This document shows positions 3,422 through 45,040 of a stretch of DNA of 64,000 nt, in pieces (within the stretch, counting starts at the first letter, position 1; each line of letters starts with the position of its first letter). Position numbers and translations under genes: made by a program. The DNA comes from an uncultured Bacilli bacterium (lineage in GTDB: Bacteria; Bacillota_I; Bacilli_A; RF39; UBA660). The notes under the pieces are model-generated. The model did not search any database, was not told where the DNA came from, and was given only the letters and a program-made list of their open reading frames with translations. Location of the stretch: contig CALVIG010000006.1 of the NCBI GenBank assembly GCA_944329425.1, forward strand, positions 1 to 64,000, given 5' to 3'.

Positions 3422-4850
3422 CATCATCATCCTTGTCATATACTATATCCGGATTAAATTTTGCACTTTTTTTGGTTATTATTGCATCTTTTTGGGCCTT
3501 AAAATTAAATGGTTCAAAAGGAGAAAAATAAGGTTTTCCACAGGAATTTTGACTTATTAGTAGTGCCATTAACATAATAAAGCCAAACATTACTCCTATA
3601 AATCCAAATAAAGCTGCCAAAATTATTAAAAATAACTGTACCCATTTAATCGAATTAATTAGTTCAATAGAGCTAAAAGCTAAACTAGCTACCGAACTGA
3701 TACCAACTATTATTATGGTAATAGGAGAAACAATACCAGCTTCAACCGCAGCTTGTCCTAGTACAAGTGCTCCAACTATTGAAATGGAACTACCACCTTT
3801 ACCAGGGAAACGCATATCACTTTCTCTTAAGATATAAAACATAAAACTCATTACAATTATTTCAAAAACGGTGGAAAAGGGAACTCCGTCTCTTTGGATT
3901 GAAAAGTTTATTAAAAGCCCACTAGGCAGTGCTTCTTGGTTATAAGCCATTAATGATATGTATACCGCCGGGGTTAATATTGCTAAAAAAAGAGCAATAA
4001 TCCTTATTATTCTGTTTCCTATTACGTTTAAGCTTTTTTCATAATAATCTTCTGGATTTTTGAAAAAATCAATAAACATACAAGGAAGAATGATTACTTC
4101 GTTTGAGTTTTCTACCATTAAAACAATCCTTCCTTCAAGAAGCATTTGGCAAGCAAAGTCTGGCCTTTGAGTTGCTAGCATGGTAGGAAATATAAACCTA
4201 TTGGTATTACTTATTGCGTCAATTATGTAATTAGTGTTACCCACGTATTTTATATTTATGTTATTTATTTGTTTACTTATTTTTTTAACCATTTGCTCAT
4301 TACTTACGCCCTTAATGTAAAATAATGCTACCTTGGTTTTACTTTCAGTGCCAACCGTTGCTTCATCAATCCACAATTTTTCGGTTTTTAGCCTTCTTCT
4401 TATCATTCCCATGTTAAATTGATAGTTTTCACTAAAAGCATCACTAGGTCCTTTAATTCCTTTTTCGTTTTCACTTTTATTAATTGGACTATATATGTTA
4501 GCCCTATTTTCAAAAGCAAGTAATTTGCCATCATCAAAAACGCACACGGTAAATCCGCTCATTACGTAATAAGAAATTTTCTTTTCTTCACTAAAGGATA
4601 ATATGTTATTATTTGGAATATAATTTTTAACGTACTCGTATAAATCATCACTTTTTATTTTATCTTTGTCTTCATCTATTCTTCTTAAAATAAAATCATT
4701 AATATCATTTGAACTACTAACGCTCATTGAGTATATAAAAGTAATTGCTTCATCATTAAATTCAAAATCTTTATAATTTATATCAGGAGCGTTGTTAGTA
4801 TTTTTTTTTAATTCTTCTATAATTTTTATTCTTTTACTTTTTTTAATCAT
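3405..4850 (-). CDS. gerAA: Spore germination protein, GerAA family
   Basis: A-subunit of the GerA-type germinant receptor. 481 residues: a hydrophilic N-terminal half (about 1-285) followed by a cluster of membrane segments (about 285-430) and a charged, Asp-rich tail, the usual GerA family layout. In B. subtilis GerAA forms the oligomeric germinant-gated ion channel. First gene of the operon; the leader has GAGGG before ATG at 4850. I could not find a convincing forespore (sigma-G) promoter by eye. The presence of the operon is the main evidence that the organism makes endospores. Confidence 0.92.
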   Translation of the reverse strand: MIKKSKRIKIIEELKKNTNNAPDINYKDFEFNDEAITFIYSMSVSSSNDINDFILRRIDEDKDKIKSDDLYEYVKNYIPNNNILSFSEEKKISYYVMSGFTVCVFDDGKLLAFENRANIYSPINKSENEKGIKGPSDAFSENYQFNMGMIRRRLKTEKLWIDEATVGTESKTKVALFYIKGVSNEQMVKKISKQINNINIKYVGNTNYIIDAISNTNRFIFPTMLATQRPDFACQMLLEGRIVLMVENSNEVIILPCMFIDFFKNPEDYYEKSLNVIGNRIIRIIALFLAILTPAVYISLMAYNQEALPSGLLINFSIQRDGVPFSTVFEIIVMSFMFYILRESDMRFPGKGGSSISIVGALVLGQAAVEAGIVSPITIIIVGISSVASLAFSSIELINSIKWVQLFLIILAALFGFIGVMFGFIMLMALLISQNSCGKPYFSPFEPFNFKAQKDAIITKKSAKFNPDIVYDKDDDDEKNS

Positions 4851-4899
4851 ATTATCCCTCTTTTTTAAATAGTATTAACCAAAAGTGGTAAAAAATAAC

Positions 4900-5004
4900 A
4901 AAAAAAAGGAGATTACACGGTTTCCCATGCAATCTCAAAAAGAATAAAAAGGGGTTGGCTAGTTGTGATACTAGCACCAGCTATCGTTTCCTCCAGCTGG
5001 TGCC
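4900..5004 (-). ncRNA. Candidate small RNA with C-rich linker, own promoter and terminator
   Basis: Minus strand, upstream of gerAA. A strong promoter (TTGACT at 5037-5032, 17-nt spacer, TAGTAT at 5014-5009) would start RNA at about 5004. From the 5' end: a 10-bp hairpin (5004-4995 with 4982-4973) whose loop holds GGAGG; a 5-bp hairpin (4974-4970 with 4963-4959); an unpaired linker containing CCAACCCCTTTTT (4958-4937); and a 12-bp terminator stem with a GAAA loop (4936-4909) followed by seven U. The length is about 105 nt. No SRP-type GGAA/asymmetric loop and no T-box sequence is present. It could be an independent RNA or the terminated leader of gerAA. Confidence 0.6.
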
Positions 5005-5008
5005 ATTT

Positions 5009-5037
5009 ATACTAATCGAAAGTGATAAAAAAGTCAA
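5009..5037 (-). promoter_or_regulatory. Promoter of the minus-strand small RNA
   Basis: TTGACT, exactly 17 nt, TAGTAT on the minus strand. The predicted start falls on the first base of the 5' hairpin. Confidence 0.7.
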
Positions 5038-5087
5038 CTGTTTTTTTAAAATATTTTAAAAAAATTTAATATTTTGGGTTGTCTTGA

Positions 5088-5116
5088 TTGATTTGCAAAC
5101 AAACGTTTGTTATAAT
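5088..5116 (+). promoter_or_regulatory. recG promoter with palindrome in the spacer
   Basis: TTGATT (5088-5093), 17 nt, TATAAT (5111-5116). The spacer is largely the perfect 14-bp palindrome AACAAACGTTTGTT (5098-5111), which touches the -10. It is LacI-like in having a central CG. A related AAACGTTT overlaps the -35 of the promoter at 37172. Confidence 0.65.
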
Positions 5117-5144
5117 TGACATATAGTTGAAGAAGGTAATTATA

Positions 5145-7070
5145 ATGAACTTAGAAAAAATACCAAAAATAGGAAGTAAAAGCGCTGAACTTTTAAATAA
5201 TTTAGGTATATATAACGTGGATGATTTAATAAGAAATTATCCGTATCGTTTTAACGTGTTTTCAAGAAGAAACATAAATGATGAGCGTTTTTATAACGAA
5301 ATGGTAACAGATGGAATGGTTGAATCAAACCCAATAGTTAGTTTTTTTAAAGGTAAGAAAAACAGGCTTACTTTTAGGTGTAACGTTCAAAATAAAATTA
5401 TTAAAGTAGTTATATATAACAGAGCTTTTATGAAAAATAGCATAAAGATAGGAAATTATGTTACCCTAATTGGAAAATATGATCCTTCTTTAGAAACGTT
5501 AACTGCAAGCAACATATTATTATCAAAGTTACCTGATAAAAAGGTTATTATTCCCGTTTATCATCTTTGTAAGGGTATTAGTTTAAAACAGATGAGAAAC
5601 TTTATTAATAACGCTTTAAAAGTATGTGACGTAAAAGATAATATTCCAAGCGAAATAAAGTCTAAATATGGGTTTATGGAAGAAAAACGTGCCCTTGAAA
5701 TCATACATAATCCTACTGATGAAACCGCTTTAAAAGATGCTTTAAAAACTTTAAAATATGAAGAAATATTTACTTATATGTTAAAGGTTAGAAATTTAAA
5801 AATTAAAAACCAGGAACACAACGATTTATATAGAAAAATGGTAGATGATGGTAAAGTTAACTTGTTTATTGAATCTTTACCTTTTGACCTTACTTTGGAC
5901 CAGAAAAAGGTAATAGACGAAATGATAACAAACATAAAAAGTGATGTTAAAATGAACAGGTTACTTCAAGGTGATGTTGGTTCTGGTAAAACGATTGTAG
6001 CATTTGTTTTAGCATATGCTGTTTTTACCGCGGGCTATCAGTCTACTTTAATGACACCAACCGAGATACTTGCGTTTCAGCATTATCAAAACGCGGTTAA
6101 TTTATTTAAAAACACCAATTTTAAAATTGCGCTATTGACAGGGAAAACTAGTTCTAAAGAAAAGAAACAAATCTATGATAAATTAATGAATAATGAAATT
6201 GACTTTTTAATAGGAACGCATGCATTAATAGGTGATAAAGTTTCTTGGAGTAATTTAGGGCTTGTTATAACCGATGAGCAACATAGGTTTGGGGTAAACC
6301 AAAGGTTAAAGCTTAAAAACAAATCAAATTATCCTGACGTTTTGATGATGAGTGCAACCCCAATACCAAGAACTTACGCTTTAACCATATATGGTGATAC
6401 TGATATATCTAGCATTAAAACAATGCCAAAAGGAAGGCTTCCGGTAAAAACATACGTAAGGAAAACGAGTGAATTAAAAGATGTTTTAAAACGTATTTAT
6501 GAAGCTTTAAAAAATGGTAATCAAGCTTACGTTATTGCGCCGATGATAGAAGAAAATGAAGATACTGACTATACTAACGTTTATGATTTAAAGCATAAAT
6601 TCGAGCTGGCTTTTAAAAATTACAATATAGAAATACTTCATGGTAAGATGACCAAAGAAGAAAAAGATGAGGTAATGGATAAATACTTAGAAAACAAAAT
6701 TAACATTCTAATTTCAACTACCGTAGTAGAAGTAGGTGTAGATGTTAAAAACGCAAGTGTTATGGTAATCTTTGATGCTGATAGATTTGGCCTTTCAACC
6801 CTCCACCAATTAAGGGGAAGGGTTGGTAGAAACAGTGTTCAATCATACTGTTATTTAGTAAGTGATAAAGATAAAGAAAGATTAAAAATAATGGAAGAAA
6901 CAAGTGATGGTTATAAAATAAGTGAAGCTGATTTCAAGTTAAGGGGTCAGGGTGATTTGTTTGGAAGTAAGCAAAGTGGTGCTTTATCATTTAAGTTATC
7001 TGACATAAAAAAAGATTATGATTTGTTTGTTAAAGTGAAACACGATATTGAAAATTTCATGACGGATTGA
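5145..7070 (+). CDS. recG: ATP-dependent DNA helicase RecG
   Basis: Branch-migration helicase acting on stalled forks and Holliday junctions. 641 residues, close to the usual 670-690. An N-terminal helix-hairpin-helix-like segment (IPKIGSKSAELL) and wedge/OB domain precede the helicase core: Walker A GDVGSGKT, the DEQHRFG box, SATPIPRT, and C-terminal motifs TTVVEVGVDV and QLRGRVGR. ATG at 5145 is used because AAGG lies 8 nt upstream; a TTG at 5127 has no ribosome site. It ends with TGA at 7068-7070, and that stop codon is part of the -35 of the next gene's promoter. Confidence 0.95.
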   Translation: MNLEKIPKIGSKSAELLNNLGIYNVDDLIRNYPYRFNVFSRRNINDERFYNEMVTDGMVESNPIVSFFKGKKNRLTFRCNVQNKIIKVVIYNRAFMKNSIKIGNYVTLIGKYDPSLETLTASNILLSKLPDKKVIIPVYHLCKGISLKQMRNFINNALKVCDVKDNIPSEIKSKYGFMEEKRALEIIHNPTDETALKDALKTLKYEEIFTYMLKVRNLKIKNQEHNDLYRKMVDDGKVNLFIESLPFDLTLDQKKVIDEMITNIKSDVKMNRLLQGDVGSGKTIVAFVLAYAVFTAGYQSTLMTPTEILAFQHYQNAVNLFKNTNFKIALLTGKTSSKEKKQIYDKLMNNEIDFLIGTHALIGDKVSWSNLGLVITDEQHRFGVNQRLKLKNKSNYPDVLMMSATPIPRTYALTIYGDTDISSIKTMPKGRLPVKTYVRKTSELKDVLKRIYEALKNGNQAYVIAPMIEENEDTDYTNVYDLKHKFELAFKNYNIEILHGKMTKEEKDEVMDKYLENKINILISTTVVEVGVDVKNASVMVIFDADRFGLSTLHQLRGRVGRNSVQSYCYLVSDKDKERLKIMEETSDGYKISEADFKLRGQGDLFGSKQSGALSFKLSDIKKDYDLFVKVKHDIENFMTD

Positions 7071-20400: not shown

Positions 20401-21999
20401 ATGATGTTATACTTAGTTAGTTTAATTCCATTTTTGATTTTGCTTATTTATGATTTTAAGAAAATGATTCATATGGCACAGCAAAATTTATATAATGATG
20501 ATAACAGGTTTTTAAGGTGGTCTTTAAAGGATATTAAACAGTTTAAAACGCCACTTAAATGTTCTTTGGTAGTGTTAATAACTTTGATTATTCTTGTTAT
20601 ATTTAAGTTAGATGCCAAAGTTATAACAACGGTTTATTTTGCGTTGGTATGTATAATAATATTACTTATAAAAATAAAAGAAAACAAAAGTAACGACGTT
20701 AAAATAGGACTTAAGGTTACGTCCAGGGTAAAAAGGCTTATGTTTACTAATTTGTTATTATTTTTACTTGTTTTGGCATTTACGTTTTATTTTAAGAACA
20801 TAAATTTGAGGTATTTAATTTTATTTACCTATGAAATAATGATATGTTTTATAATTATGTTATCAATAATAATTAATAAGCCAGTTGAACGTATGGTGTA
20901 TTTATCTTATAAAAGAAAGGCTACTAATAAGCTTCATGAAATGAAAAGTCTTAAGGTAATAGGAATTACCGGAAGTTATGGTAAAACTAGTAGTAAAAAC
21001 ATCTTAAGTGATATCTTAAACGTAAAATATAACGCGCTTCCTAGCCCTAAGAACTTTAATACTCCTTATGGTCTTATTATAACGGTTAATAATCATTTGG
21101 ATAAATTTGATGATATTTTAATTGCGGAAATGGGTGCGTATAAAGTTGGTGAAATAAAAGAGTTGTGCGACTTAGTTAAACCTAAGTATGGTATTTTAAC
21201 AAAAATAGGTACCGCTCACATAGAAATATTTGGTTCACAAGAAAACATTCAAAAAGGGAAGTTTGAACTTATTGAAAGCTTGCCTCATGATGGTATCGGT
21301 GTTTTAAACGCTGATGACCCATTACAAGTTAATTATAAGTTAAAAAATGATTGTAAAATATTGTGGATTGGTATAGAAAACAAGGATGCTGACGTTTTAG
21401 CTACTGATATTAAGACTTCAAATGTTGGCACGACGTTTAACGTTGTTTTTAAAGGTGATAAAAACAAGTATAAGTTTACAACCAAGTTATTGGGGTATAA
21501 TAACATATATAATATTTTAGCGGCATTAGCTTTATCAAAAGAGTTTGGTCTTACCATAGAACAAATGCAAAAAGCGGTGTTAGGTGTTAAAAGCGTTGAA
21601 CACAGACTTGAACTTAGAAAAGCAGGAAACATTACCTACATAGATGATTCTTATAATTCTAATCCGGTTGGTTCTAAAATGGCCTTAGAAGTTTTAAAAA
21701 GCATGCCAGGAACTAAGATAGTTATGACACCAGGCATGGTAGAGTTAGGAGATAAACATTACGAACTTAATAAAAAGTTTGGTACTTACATGAAAGATAC
21801 TACTGACATAGTAATACTAGTAGGAGAAAAGATAACTAAACCCATTAAAGATGGTTTAAAAGAAGTTAATTATAACGAGAAAAACATATACGTTGTTAAG
21901 AGTACTAAAGAAGCTTTTGCACTTGTTAACAGTTTATCAAAGGGTAAGGAAATATACTGCTTGATAGAAAATGATTTACCAGATATATACAATGAATAG
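20401..21999 (+). CDS. murF: MurF-type Mur ligase with N-terminal membrane domain
   Basis: Adds D-Ala-D-Ala to the UDP-MurNAc-tripeptide. 532 residues. Residues 1 to about 165 contain five hydrophobic segments, absent from ordinary soluble MurF. The ligase follows: ATP loop GITGSYGKTSSKN (about 195-205), EMGAYKVGEIKELC, TKIGTAHIEIFGS, the lid EHRLELR and DDSYNSNP. It lies between a hydrolase and ddl, whose product D-Ala-D-Ala is its substrate, 12 nt apart. MurF fits best because of ddl and the DDSYNSNP motif; a MurT-like role is less likely, as no cysteine cluster is seen. Confidence 0.88.
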   Translation: MMLYLVSLIPFLILLIYDFKKMIHMAQQNLYNDDNRFLRWSLKDIKQFKTPLKCSLVVLITLIILVIFKLDAKVITTVYFALVCIIILLIKIKENKSNDVKIGLKVTSRVKRLMFTNLLLFLLVLAFTFYFKNINLRYLILFTYEIMICFIIMLSIIINKPVERMVYLSYKRKATNKLHEMKSLKVIGITGSYGKTSSKNILSDILNVKYNALPSPKNFNTPYGLIITVNNHLDKFDDILIAEMGAYKVGEIKELCDLVKPKYGILTKIGTAHIEIFGSQENIQKGKFELIESLPHDGIGVLNADDPLQVNYKLKNDCKILWIGIENKDADVLATDIKTSNVGTTFNVVFKGDKNKYKFTTKLLGYNNIYNILAALALSKEFGLTIEQMQKAVLGVKSVEHRLELRKAGNITYIDDSYNSNPVGSKMALEVLKSMPGTKIVMTPGMVELGDKHYELNKKFGTYMKDTTDIVILVGEKITKPIKDGLKEVNYNEKNIYVVKSTKEAFALVNSLSKGKEIYCLIENDLPDIYNE

Positions 22000-42223: not shown

Positions 42224-42309
42224 TAAATAATGATGATATTAAAAAAAAGTAATATTGTGCTATAATTATTTATAGAATGTATTACTTTTTTTGTTTGGAG
42301 TTGATATAA

Positions 42310-43668
42310 ATGGATAAGTATAATGAATTAAGAGAAAAGTACCCGTTATTTTATTATCACGGTTTTAAAATAGAGGATAATGATAACGAGTTGTTTATCA
42401 CTTATGATTTTGAAATAAAGGGTTTAGAAAGATTTAATCCTACTTTAAAAGTTCCAAAAACTACTAAGGTAAATTACGATAAATCCTTGCTAAATAAGAT
42501 TATATTTAGCGCTGGATTAGCGGAAATACCAAGTTATTGGAAGGCTACTTGCTCTCCTAAAATAATAATAGCGTGCGGCACTCTTAATGAAGAGCAAACA
42601 AATTGGGTAAAGAAGCTTATTTATAATGGCTTGGGAGAGTTTTTTTACGTAAATAAAATAAATGCTAAGTATGATGATTTTGTAACCGTTACAAGTGGGG
42701 GAGAAAGTTACGAAAAAATTTATGATAATAACACTTATGATGGTTACTTAGTAGCGGTAGGTGGCGGAAAGGATTCACTTACTTCTTTAGAAATATTAAA
42801 AAACGTGCCAAATAAAAAAGCTTTTATTATAAATAATAGAAAAGTGTGTTTCGACGGCGCTTACACTGCTGGTATAAAAAAAGAAGACGTAATAAACGTG
42901 GAAAGATTATTTGATAAAAAAATAATTGAATTAAATAACAAAGGCTTTTTAAACGGTCATACACCACTATCGAGCTGTATTGCTTTTATAGCTTACTTAA
43001 CGGCATACGTAAATGGTATAAAGTGCGTTGTTTTATCAAACGAATCAAGTGCTAACGAAGCAAGTGTAAAAGGAACTAATATTAATCATCAATATTCAAA
43101 GAGCCTTGAGTTTGAAAATGATTTTAGGTATTATACAAAGAAATATTTAACTGATAAAATAGAGTACTTCAGTTTGTTAAGACCACTTAACGAGCTTCAA
43201 ATCATGAAGATTTTTACAAAGTATCCTAAGTACTTTAACCATTTTATTAGTTGTAATAACGGTGGAAAAAGGAAAAACATCGGAAAAAAAGATGGTTGGT
43301 GCCTATCTTGTGCAAAATGTTTATTTATTTATATTTTGATGAGTAACTTTGTTAATCAAGATGAAATGGTTAAAATTTTTGGTGAAAACCTACTTGATAA
43401 AAAAGAAATGTTAACTTATTTTCTTGAACTTGCTGGTAAAACCGATAATAAGCCATTTGAATGTGTTGGTACGGTAAATGAAGTTTTGTTCGCGATTAAC
43501 AACTTAATAGAAAAATGGAAAGATAACTTACCTTATTTATTAAGTTACTATAAAGAAAATTATAGGGTTTCAAAACCAAGTTGTGATATTCTTACGAATA
43601 TTGATGAAAATAACAACGTTCCAGAAGAACTTTTGAAATTAGTAGTAAAGGAGCTTAATAATGATTGA
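42310..43668 (+). CDS. murL: UDP-MurNAc-L-Ala-L-Glu epimerase
   Basis: Epimerises the L-Glu of UDP-MurNAc-L-Ala-L-Glu to D-Glu, an alternative to glutamate racemase first shown in Xanthomonas. 452 residues versus about 450 for that enzyme. Shared landmarks in order: YNGLGEF, VAVGGGKDSL, ELNNKGFLNGHTP, VLSNESSANEASV, NHQYSKSLEFE, YFSLLRPLNEL, HFISCN, WCLSCAKCLF, IFGENLLD and KPFECVG. Its 3' end overlaps murD by 8 bp, as expected for a coupled pair. TTGGAG precedes ATG 42310. Confidence 0.93.
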   Translation: MDKYNELREKYPLFYYHGFKIEDNDNELFITYDFEIKGLERFNPTLKVPKTTKVNYDKSLLNKIIFSAGLAEIPSYWKATCSPKIIIACGTLNEEQTNWVKKLIYNGLGEFFYVNKINAKYDDFVTVTSGGESYEKIYDNNTYDGYLVAVGGGKDSLTSLEILKNVPNKKAFIINNRKVCFDGAYTAGIKKEDVINVERLFDKKIIELNNKGFLNGHTPLSSCIAFIAYLTAYVNGIKCVVLSNESSANEASVKGTNINHQYSKSLEFENDFRYYTKKYLTDKIEYFSLLRPLNELQIMKIFTKYPKYFNHFISCNNGGKRKNIGKKDGWCLSCAKCLFIYILMSNFVNQDEMVKIFGENLLDKKEMLTYFLELAGKTDNKPFECVGTVNEVLFAINNLIEKWKDNLPYLLSYYKENYRVSKPSCDILTNIDENNNVPEELLKLVVKELNND

Positions 43669-45040
43669 TAACATAATAAATGATATAAATGGTAAGGAAA
43701 AAGTACTGATTTTAGGATTTGGTAGAGAAGGTAAATCAACTTATAGTTTAATAAGAAAATACTTAAAAGATAAGAAATTAACAATAGGGGACGCAAACAA
43801 AGAACTTATTAACAATAATCCTGAATTAAAAGAAGATCATAATCTTGAGTTTGTTTTAGGTGATAGCTACCTTGATGATTTGGATAGTTATGATTTAATA
43901 ATAAAGTCTCCAGGGGTTAATTTTAAACATGTTAACTATGATGGTTTTAAGGATAAAATAACTTCACAAATAGATTTGTTTTTAAAGCATGCTAATTGTC
44001 TTACTATTGGTGTTACGGGAACTAAGGGTAAAAGCACGACCTCATCTTTAATTTATTACGTTTTGAAAAACATGAATAAACGTACGGTTTTATTAGGTAA
44101 CATAGGTATTCCCGTTTTTGATGAAATAGAAAATATTACCAAAGATACTTTGGTGGTGTTAGAGTTAAGTTGCCATCAGCTTCAGTTCGTAAATGCCTCG
44201 CCTAATATAAGTGTTCTTTTAAATATTTATGAAGAACACCTAGATCTTTATAAGTCATACTTAGATTATCAATTAGCTAAATTAAATATTTTTAAGTACC
44301 AAAAAGATGGTGATTATAGCGTTTGGGGACTAGATAGTAAGGATTCTTTAAAATGGTTTAAACCTTCCTTATATTCGTATGAGTTTTCGTGTGACTCTAA
44401 GAAAGTTAAAACTGGTATAGCAATTGAAAAAGATGCTCTTTATTTGGTAAAAAATGACGATAAAATAAAAGTATATGATAGGACTAGAAAAAGAAATCTT
44501 TTGGGTGACCATAATTTGTATAACGTTGCGGCATGCATTTGTGTTTGTGACGTATTAGGTTTAGATTTAAACGTGGTATCTGATTTAATAGATGAATTTA
44601 AACCACTTGAACACCGAATGGAACTTGTTGGAACGTTTAACGGAATAACTTTTTATAATGATTCAATTGCAACCATTCCAGCGGCAACGATTAACTGCAT
44701 TAAATCAATTCCAAACACCAGTACCGTCATAATTGGGGGTATGAATAGGGGTCTTGATTTAAGTGATTTAACTAAGTATTTAAATGATAATAATGATTTA
44801 AAAACCTTAATATTTTTAAAGGATACTGGTTACATAATGTGTGATGAATTAGAAAAACTTGGTTGTACAAAAAAGCTTATTAAAGCAAAAGATATGAAGG
44901 ACGCGGTAAAAAACGCTTACTTATGTACCCCTAAAAACCACTCATGCGTTTTGTCGCCAGCAGCAGCTAGTTATAATACTTACAAGAATTTTGAAGAGCG
45001 TGGCAAAGATTATAAAAGATGGATTAAAGAACTTAAATAA
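43661..45040 (+). CDS. murD: UDP-MurNAc-L-alanine-glutamate ligase (MurD, probably L-Glu type)
   Basis: Mur ligase adding glutamate to UDP-MurNAc-L-Ala. 459 residues. N-terminal nucleotide domain (LILGFGREGKST), ATP loop GVTGTKGKSTTSSL, ELSCHQLQFV, NIYEEHLDLY, DHNLYNVAA, PLEHRMELVG, FYNDSIATIPAA and SPAAASYN. The overlap with murL and the ELSCHQLQ in place of the common ELSSFQLE suggest the MurD2 form that uses L-Glu. That preference is inferred from context. A terminator follows directly. Confidence 0.88.
   Translation: MIDNIINDINGKEKVLILGFGREGKSTYSLIRKYLKDKKLTIGDANKELINNNPELKEDHNLEFVLGDSYLDDLDSYDLIIKSPGVNFKHVNYDGFKDKITSQIDLFLKHANCLTIGVTGTKGKSTTSSLIYYVLKNMNKRTVLLGNIGIPVFDEIENITKDTLVVLELSCHQLQFVNASPNISVLLNIYEEHLDLYKSYLDYQLAKLNIFKYQKDGDYSVWGLDSKDSLKWFKPSLYSYEFSCDSKKVKTGIAIEKDALYLVKNDDKIKVYDRTRKRNLLGDHNLYNVAACICVCDVLGLDLNVVSDLIDEFKPLEHRMELVGTFNGITFYNDSIATIPAATINCIKSIPNTSTVIIGGMNRGLDLSDLTKYLNDNNDLKTLIFLKDTGYIMCDELEKLGCTKKLIKAKDMKDAVKNAYLCTPKNHSCVLSPAAASYNTYKNFEERGKDYKRWIKELK

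Follow-up and report, generated by a model that had tools for sequence, protein, structure and literature searches.

How does a bacterium bring D-glutamate into its cell wall when its genome holds no recognisable glutamate racemase? The question is raised by two overlapping genes, murL and murD, in a stretch of 64,000 nucleotides (hereafter the window) from contig 6 (CALVIG010000006.1) of the assembly GCA_944329425.1 of an uncultured Bacilli bacterium, which totals 1.11 Mb in 18 contigs and is 95.8% complete. A sequence-only reading of the window had proposed that this lineage incorporates L-glutamate and inverts it afterwards, and that it may lack murI. In the published system MurL epimerises a UDP-MurNAc-dipeptide in one direction only, consuming ATP, which it converts to AMP (PMC8788868, PMC5808125). 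Our analysis indicates that the host pair very probably uses the same route, L-glutamate ligation followed by epimerisation, in place of MurI. The murL–murD pair would be where D-glutamate enters peptidoglycan synthesis in the host: MurD would attach L-glutamate to the cell-wall precursor, and MurL would then invert the attached glutamate to the D form, forming an adenylate first and turning ATP into AMP. The pair would stand in for MurI and a canonical MurD. The two genes are as follows.

42310..43668, forward strand: murL, an open reading frame (ORF) of 452 amino acids with an ATG start; matches NF041275 (E 1.4e-69), covers the conserved core of the MurL family and aligns with X. sacchari MurL at 29% identity.
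43661..45040, forward strand: murD, an ORF of 459 amino acids with an ATG start; matches TIGR01087 (E 1.8e-94), has MurD2 determinants and groups with X. sacchari MurD2 in the tree (support 97).

The 8-bp overlap between the genes that had been read from the sequence is exact (43661-43668), and all seven motifs quoted as MurL landmarks (YNGLGEF, GGGKDSL, SNESSANEASV, NHQYSKS, LLRPLNEL, WCLSCAKC and KPFECVG) are present in the product of the first gene. In profile searches MurL scored 234.7 bits against NCBIfam NF041275 and did not reach the curated cut-off of 700. That model is an equivalog limited by its name to Xanthomonadales, and the window MurL falls outside it. MurD scored 317 bits against TIGR01087, above the cut-off of 212. 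The pair is no chance match. Compared with four relatives, the ratio of nonsynonymous to synonymous substitution rates (dN/dS) is 0.09-0.11 for murL and 0.11-0.17 for murD, and both genes are under purifying selection.

Other sources of D-glutamate were sought across the host genome. Neither PF01177, the Asp/Glu racemase domain, nor a lineage-trained profile built from MurIs of the host class, most of them from the host family, found a match, and MurI was rejected as the real D-glutamate source of the host. This agrees with the suspected lack of murI. A search for class-IV aminotransferases (Aminotran_4, the fold of D-amino acid transaminase) also found none in this genome. The six Mur ligases of the host comprise MurC, two MurE, two MurF-like proteins and a single MurD, so that a second MurD accompanied by MurI, which would have spoken for the ordinary route, is not there. 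Retention of two MurE and two MurF-like ligases (L001, L003, L004, and L002 at 20401-21999 of the window) in a small genome is a separate observation; the second MurF-like protein (L004) was assigned by eye from its sequence.

We then asked which stereoisomer the window MurD is built to accept. According to Ogasawara and Dairi, four residues of E. coli MurD are replaced in X. oryzae MurD2: D182 by Glu, K348 by Arg, A414 by Pro and L416 by Phe. They further reported that E197D/R358K turned X. oryzae MurD2 to D-glutamate, while P433A and F435L mutants retained L-glutamate specificity; and that K319T made E. coli MurD accept L-glutamate (PMC8788868). The window MurD was aligned with E. coli MurD, an X. 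sacchari reference from an annotated murL-murD pair, the MurDs encoded next to 18 further murL genes, and 39 MurDs of class relatives. Since the literature numbers residues without the initiator Met, alignment columns were moved by one. At E. coli positions 182, 319, 348, 414 and 416, the residues are Glu, Ile, Arg, Ala and Tyr in the window MurD, against Glu, Ile, Arg, Pro and Phe in X. sacchari MurD2. The residues concerned, as placed by the alignment, are:

44234..44236, forward strand: MurD Glu192, equivalent to E. coli Asp182 and X. oryzae MurD2 Glu197 (PMC8788868).
44666..44668, forward strand: MurD Ile336, equivalent to E. coli Lys319, the K319T position (PMC8788868).
44747..44749, forward strand: MurD Arg363, equivalent to E. 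coli Lys348 and X. oryzae MurD2 Arg358 (PMC8788868); alone not diagnostic.
44972..44974, forward strand: MurD Tyr438, equivalent to E. coli Leu416 and X. oryzae MurD2 Phe435.

Judged from the alignment, the informative positions are 182, 319 and 348, and foremost 319, which is Ile or Leu in 28 of 28 MurL-linked MurDs (the window MurD counted) and Lys or Glu in MurDs of genomes without MurL, with one exception, G092. A maximum-likelihood tree placed the 28 MurL-linked MurDs, including X. sacchari MurD2, together with that of G092 on one side of a branch with a Shimodaira-Hasegawa-like approximate likelihood ratio (SH-aLRT) support of 97; the canonical MurDs from the host family formed a clade of their own (support 100). 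Midpoint rooting and a long X. sacchari branch make this strong rather than final evidence of kinship with MurD2. From these data we infer that the substrate of the window MurD would be L-glutamate. The exceptional protein (L071) comes from a one-contig genome of 1.5 Mb: it is MurD2-type (Glu/Ile/Arg), and searches of that genome found no MurL, MurI or class-IV aminotransferase, while G559, of the same genus, carries MurL. The ELSCHQLQ motif that the sequence-only reading had singled out in MurD is present, but it was rejected as a MurD2 marker: several of the family's canonical MurDs share its His, and in X. sacchari MurD2 this position is Tyr.

Scanning GTDB genomes yielded 19 loci with MurL relatives, labelled as Bacilli, Clostridia, Tenericutes and Bacteroidales metagenome-assembled genomes (MAGs). 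With start codons picked by homology, murD lies directly 3' of murL at all 19, overlapping it by 1-20 bp at 17 and spaced from it by 12-13 bp at the other two. Compared by eye, the MurL and MurD trees broadly agree, as they should if the two genes move as a unit. At the locus of the closest MurL relative (L007, 92% identity), murD (4513-5889) carries one in-frame TAA at codon 190 in an otherwise intact frame, which may be a sequencing error or a recent lesion. Elsewhere, a 278-residue ORF (4376-5212) separates murL from murD in L062 (G241), and MurL-like proteins of Pseudonocardia plasmids have no adjacent murD (L028, 3764-5164; L029, 3689-5083); the latter are possibly a different epimerase.

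MurL and MurI exclude each other in both class and family. In a survey of 247 genomes of the class, MurL was present in nine and PF01177 in 97; among the 103 that have MurD, 74 had PF01177 and nine MurL, with no overlap (hypergeometric P 4e-6). Within the host family (193 genomes), 32 genomes carried MurL and 64 a full-length MurI, again with an overlap of zero against 10.6 expected (P 6e-7). Both states occur within one genus: in g161, G255 has MurL and G373 has MurI, and in g187, G398 has MurL and G281 has MurI with one in-frame stop. That different species of one genus differ in this way points to repeated replacement. A third state was seen in ten genomes of family f1 (G010, G022, G055, G145, G152, G159, G186, G207, G214 and G221), which have a canonical-type MurD and in which neither MurI (two profiles) nor a class-IV aminotransferase nor MurL was found; scavenging of D-glutamate is possible in these. 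In one of them (G055), MurD and a MurC-like ligase are fused in a single ORF of 915 residues (L043, 1651-4398). The only murI of G097 is broken, with several stops.

To ask how MurL could work, we examined its predicted fold. The AlphaFold model is of high confidence (predicted local distance difference test, pLDDT, 91; predicted template modelling score, pTM, 0.91). Its only PDB match below E 0.001 was QueC (2pg3; E 1.7e-4, probability 1.00, TM score 0.61 by target length). Among solved structures no convincing sequence relative of the window MurL was found, its profile reaching just PP-loop stretches such as that of TtuA (E 8e-4); Pfam returned DUF6395 alone, below cut-off. Two candidate sites stand out:

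42760..42777, forward strand: residues 151-156 of MurL, the GGGKDS PP-loop (a motif of the SGG.DS type) and a predicted site for ATP/pyrophosphate, matched by TtuA.
43252..43320, forward strand: Cys4 cluster of MurL (C315, C331, C334 and C337), predicted zinc site.

Residues G151 to S156 are invariant in 20 MurLs, K154 becoming only nearly invariant when the plasmid orphans are added, while all four cysteines are invariant with or without the orphans and are spaced similarly to the Cys4 of QueC. Sequence profiles of MurL and QueC align weakly over this cluster (E 0.0058 to 0.014, hhalign probability 3-6%, against E 0.15 for an unrelated control), so that the link to QueC rests mainly on the fold. 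MurL is quite probably a PP-loop ATPase, and a specifically QueC-like one is the somewhat favoured possibility. PP-loop enzymes typically adenylate their substrate, so the fold fits the published chemistry, and a QueC-like fold suggests how MurL could use ATP for a one-way epimerisation.

Turning to the surroundings of the pair, Shine-Dalgarno-like sites read from the sequence lie at normal spacing before each gene:

42297..42300, forward strand: GGAG site of murL.
43650..43653, forward strand: GGAG site of murD, within the 3' end of murL.

A promoter scan near murL showed no excess (37 found, 40.1 expected from shuffles). The 5' neighbour is a beta-N-acetylhexosaminidase of the GH3 type and the 3' neighbours are a 495-residue protein and then miaB; the pair is located outside any division-cell-wall cluster. 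Its base composition resembles that of the remaining window and gave no sign of recent transfer, and no relative was found among viral contigs. The host had also been described as a low-GC spore former. Spo0A was found in its genome; a spore-forming lineage is therefore plausible, though sporulation itself is not thereby proven.

Could MurD be an ordinary D-glutamate ligase, fed from outside or by a gene missed in the assembly, with MurL in another role such as epimerising another peptide? The activity that we ascribe to the pair is a computational deduction, several family members with canonical MurD have no recognisable D-glutamate source, so that scavenging may exist in the lineage, and orphan MurL homologues occur on Pseudonocardia plasmids. 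However, the coupling to murD at 19 of 19 loci, the changes of K319 to Ile and D182 to Glu, the clade shared with Xanthomonas MurD2 and the exclusion of full MurI point to one linked function, and we regard this explanation as improbable. Alternatively, MurL could be a free glutamate racemase, giving D-glutamate directly to MurD. This would likewise explain the coupling and the absence of MurI and was the initial view of the discoverers of XOO_1319, but recombinant XOO_1319 did not racemise glutamate; its substrate was the dipeptide nucleotide (PMC8788868). With L-glutamate-type residues in the window MurD as well, we consider a free racemase highly unlikely. We give as little credence to the pair being a recent, non-functional acquisition, as its patchy distribution in the family and the in-frame TAA in murD of L007 might suggest: dN/dS is about 0.1 for both genes, the ORFs are intact, the base composition is window-like and this is the sole MurD of the genome.

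Several observations nevertheless weigh against L-glutamate ligation followed by epimerisation. MurL has 29% identity to its Xanthomonas counterpart and scores one third of the NCBIfam equivalog cut-off; its homologues without murD on plasmids illustrate that homology alone leaves function unfixed. In MurD, two of the four proposed glutamate-site differences are changed (Pro433 to Ala and Phe435 to Tyr), Arg348 is frequent in canonical Bacilli MurDs and hence not discriminating, and Asp182 is retained in a few MurL-linked MurDs (L014, L019 and G082). The exclusion P values treat genomes as independent and ignore shared ancestry; two MurL-positive genomes of one genus (G249 and G368) show a weak partial Asp/Glu-racemase match, MurL-positive G161 carries a class-IV aminotransferase of undefined type, and at 95.8% completeness one gene of the host could be missed. 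On balance, the proposal that L-glutamate is incorporated and then inverted is supported by the MurD2 determinants, the grouping with X. sacchari MurD2 and the mutual exclusion of MurL and MurI in family and class.

The window pair shares with MurL/MurD2 of X. oryzae (XOO_1319/XOO_1320), represented here by the murL-murD of X. sacchari NZ_CP010410, the gene order and overlap, the MurL motifs GGGKDS (PP-loop), NHQ.SK, SCN, WC..C.KC and KPFECVG, Glu/Arg/Ile at the MurD stereo-determinants (182/348/319) and the absence of MurI. It differs in identity (29% for MurL and 28% for MurD), in having Ala/Tyr rather than Pro/Phe at 414/416, and in its host, a low-GC Bacilli bacterium with a 1.1-Mb genome. 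MurI and canonical MurD, found in close family relatives and with MurI adjoining murD in at least one of them (G228), likewise supply D-glutamate for position two of the stem peptide. In that system, however, free glutamate is inverted before ligation and MurD has Lys or Glu at 319, and PF01177 is absent from our host. QueC (7-cyano-7-deazaguanine synthase) carries out an ATP-dependent carboxylate adenylation. It is the sole significant fold match and has a similar Cys4 cluster; its substrate and outcome are different, MurL is twice as long, and the sequence similarity in the Cys4 region is weak (E about 0.006-0.014).

The pathway has been presented as a narrow-spectrum drug target that only a few genera of proteobacteria and actinobacteria possess (PMC8788868). 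Neither of two reviews of the pathway lists Firmicutes among its carriers, and the accessible papers covered here do not report it from them. The pathway itself is known; its wide host range is the main news and apparently unreported. Its occurrence in Bacilli and Bacteroidota MAGs, several from animal guts, widens the range of the pathway. Automatic annotation can mislead here, with MurD labelled a D-glutamate ligase and MurL below the NCBI model cut-off. Taking distribution and fold together, we lean towards a joint reading in which D-glutamate supply is a swappable module (MurI with canonical MurD; MurL with MurD2; or both lost, presumably with scavenging) and MurL acts as an adenylating PP-loop enzyme of the QueC type. 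Such swapping would be seen between species of a single family of small-genome Bacilli and even within a genus, and the QueC-type identity, if true, would give the unexplained ATP-to-AMP epimerisation of MurL a structural basis. In the host family, species with MurI, with MurL and with no source lend themselves to a natural comparison within one clade.
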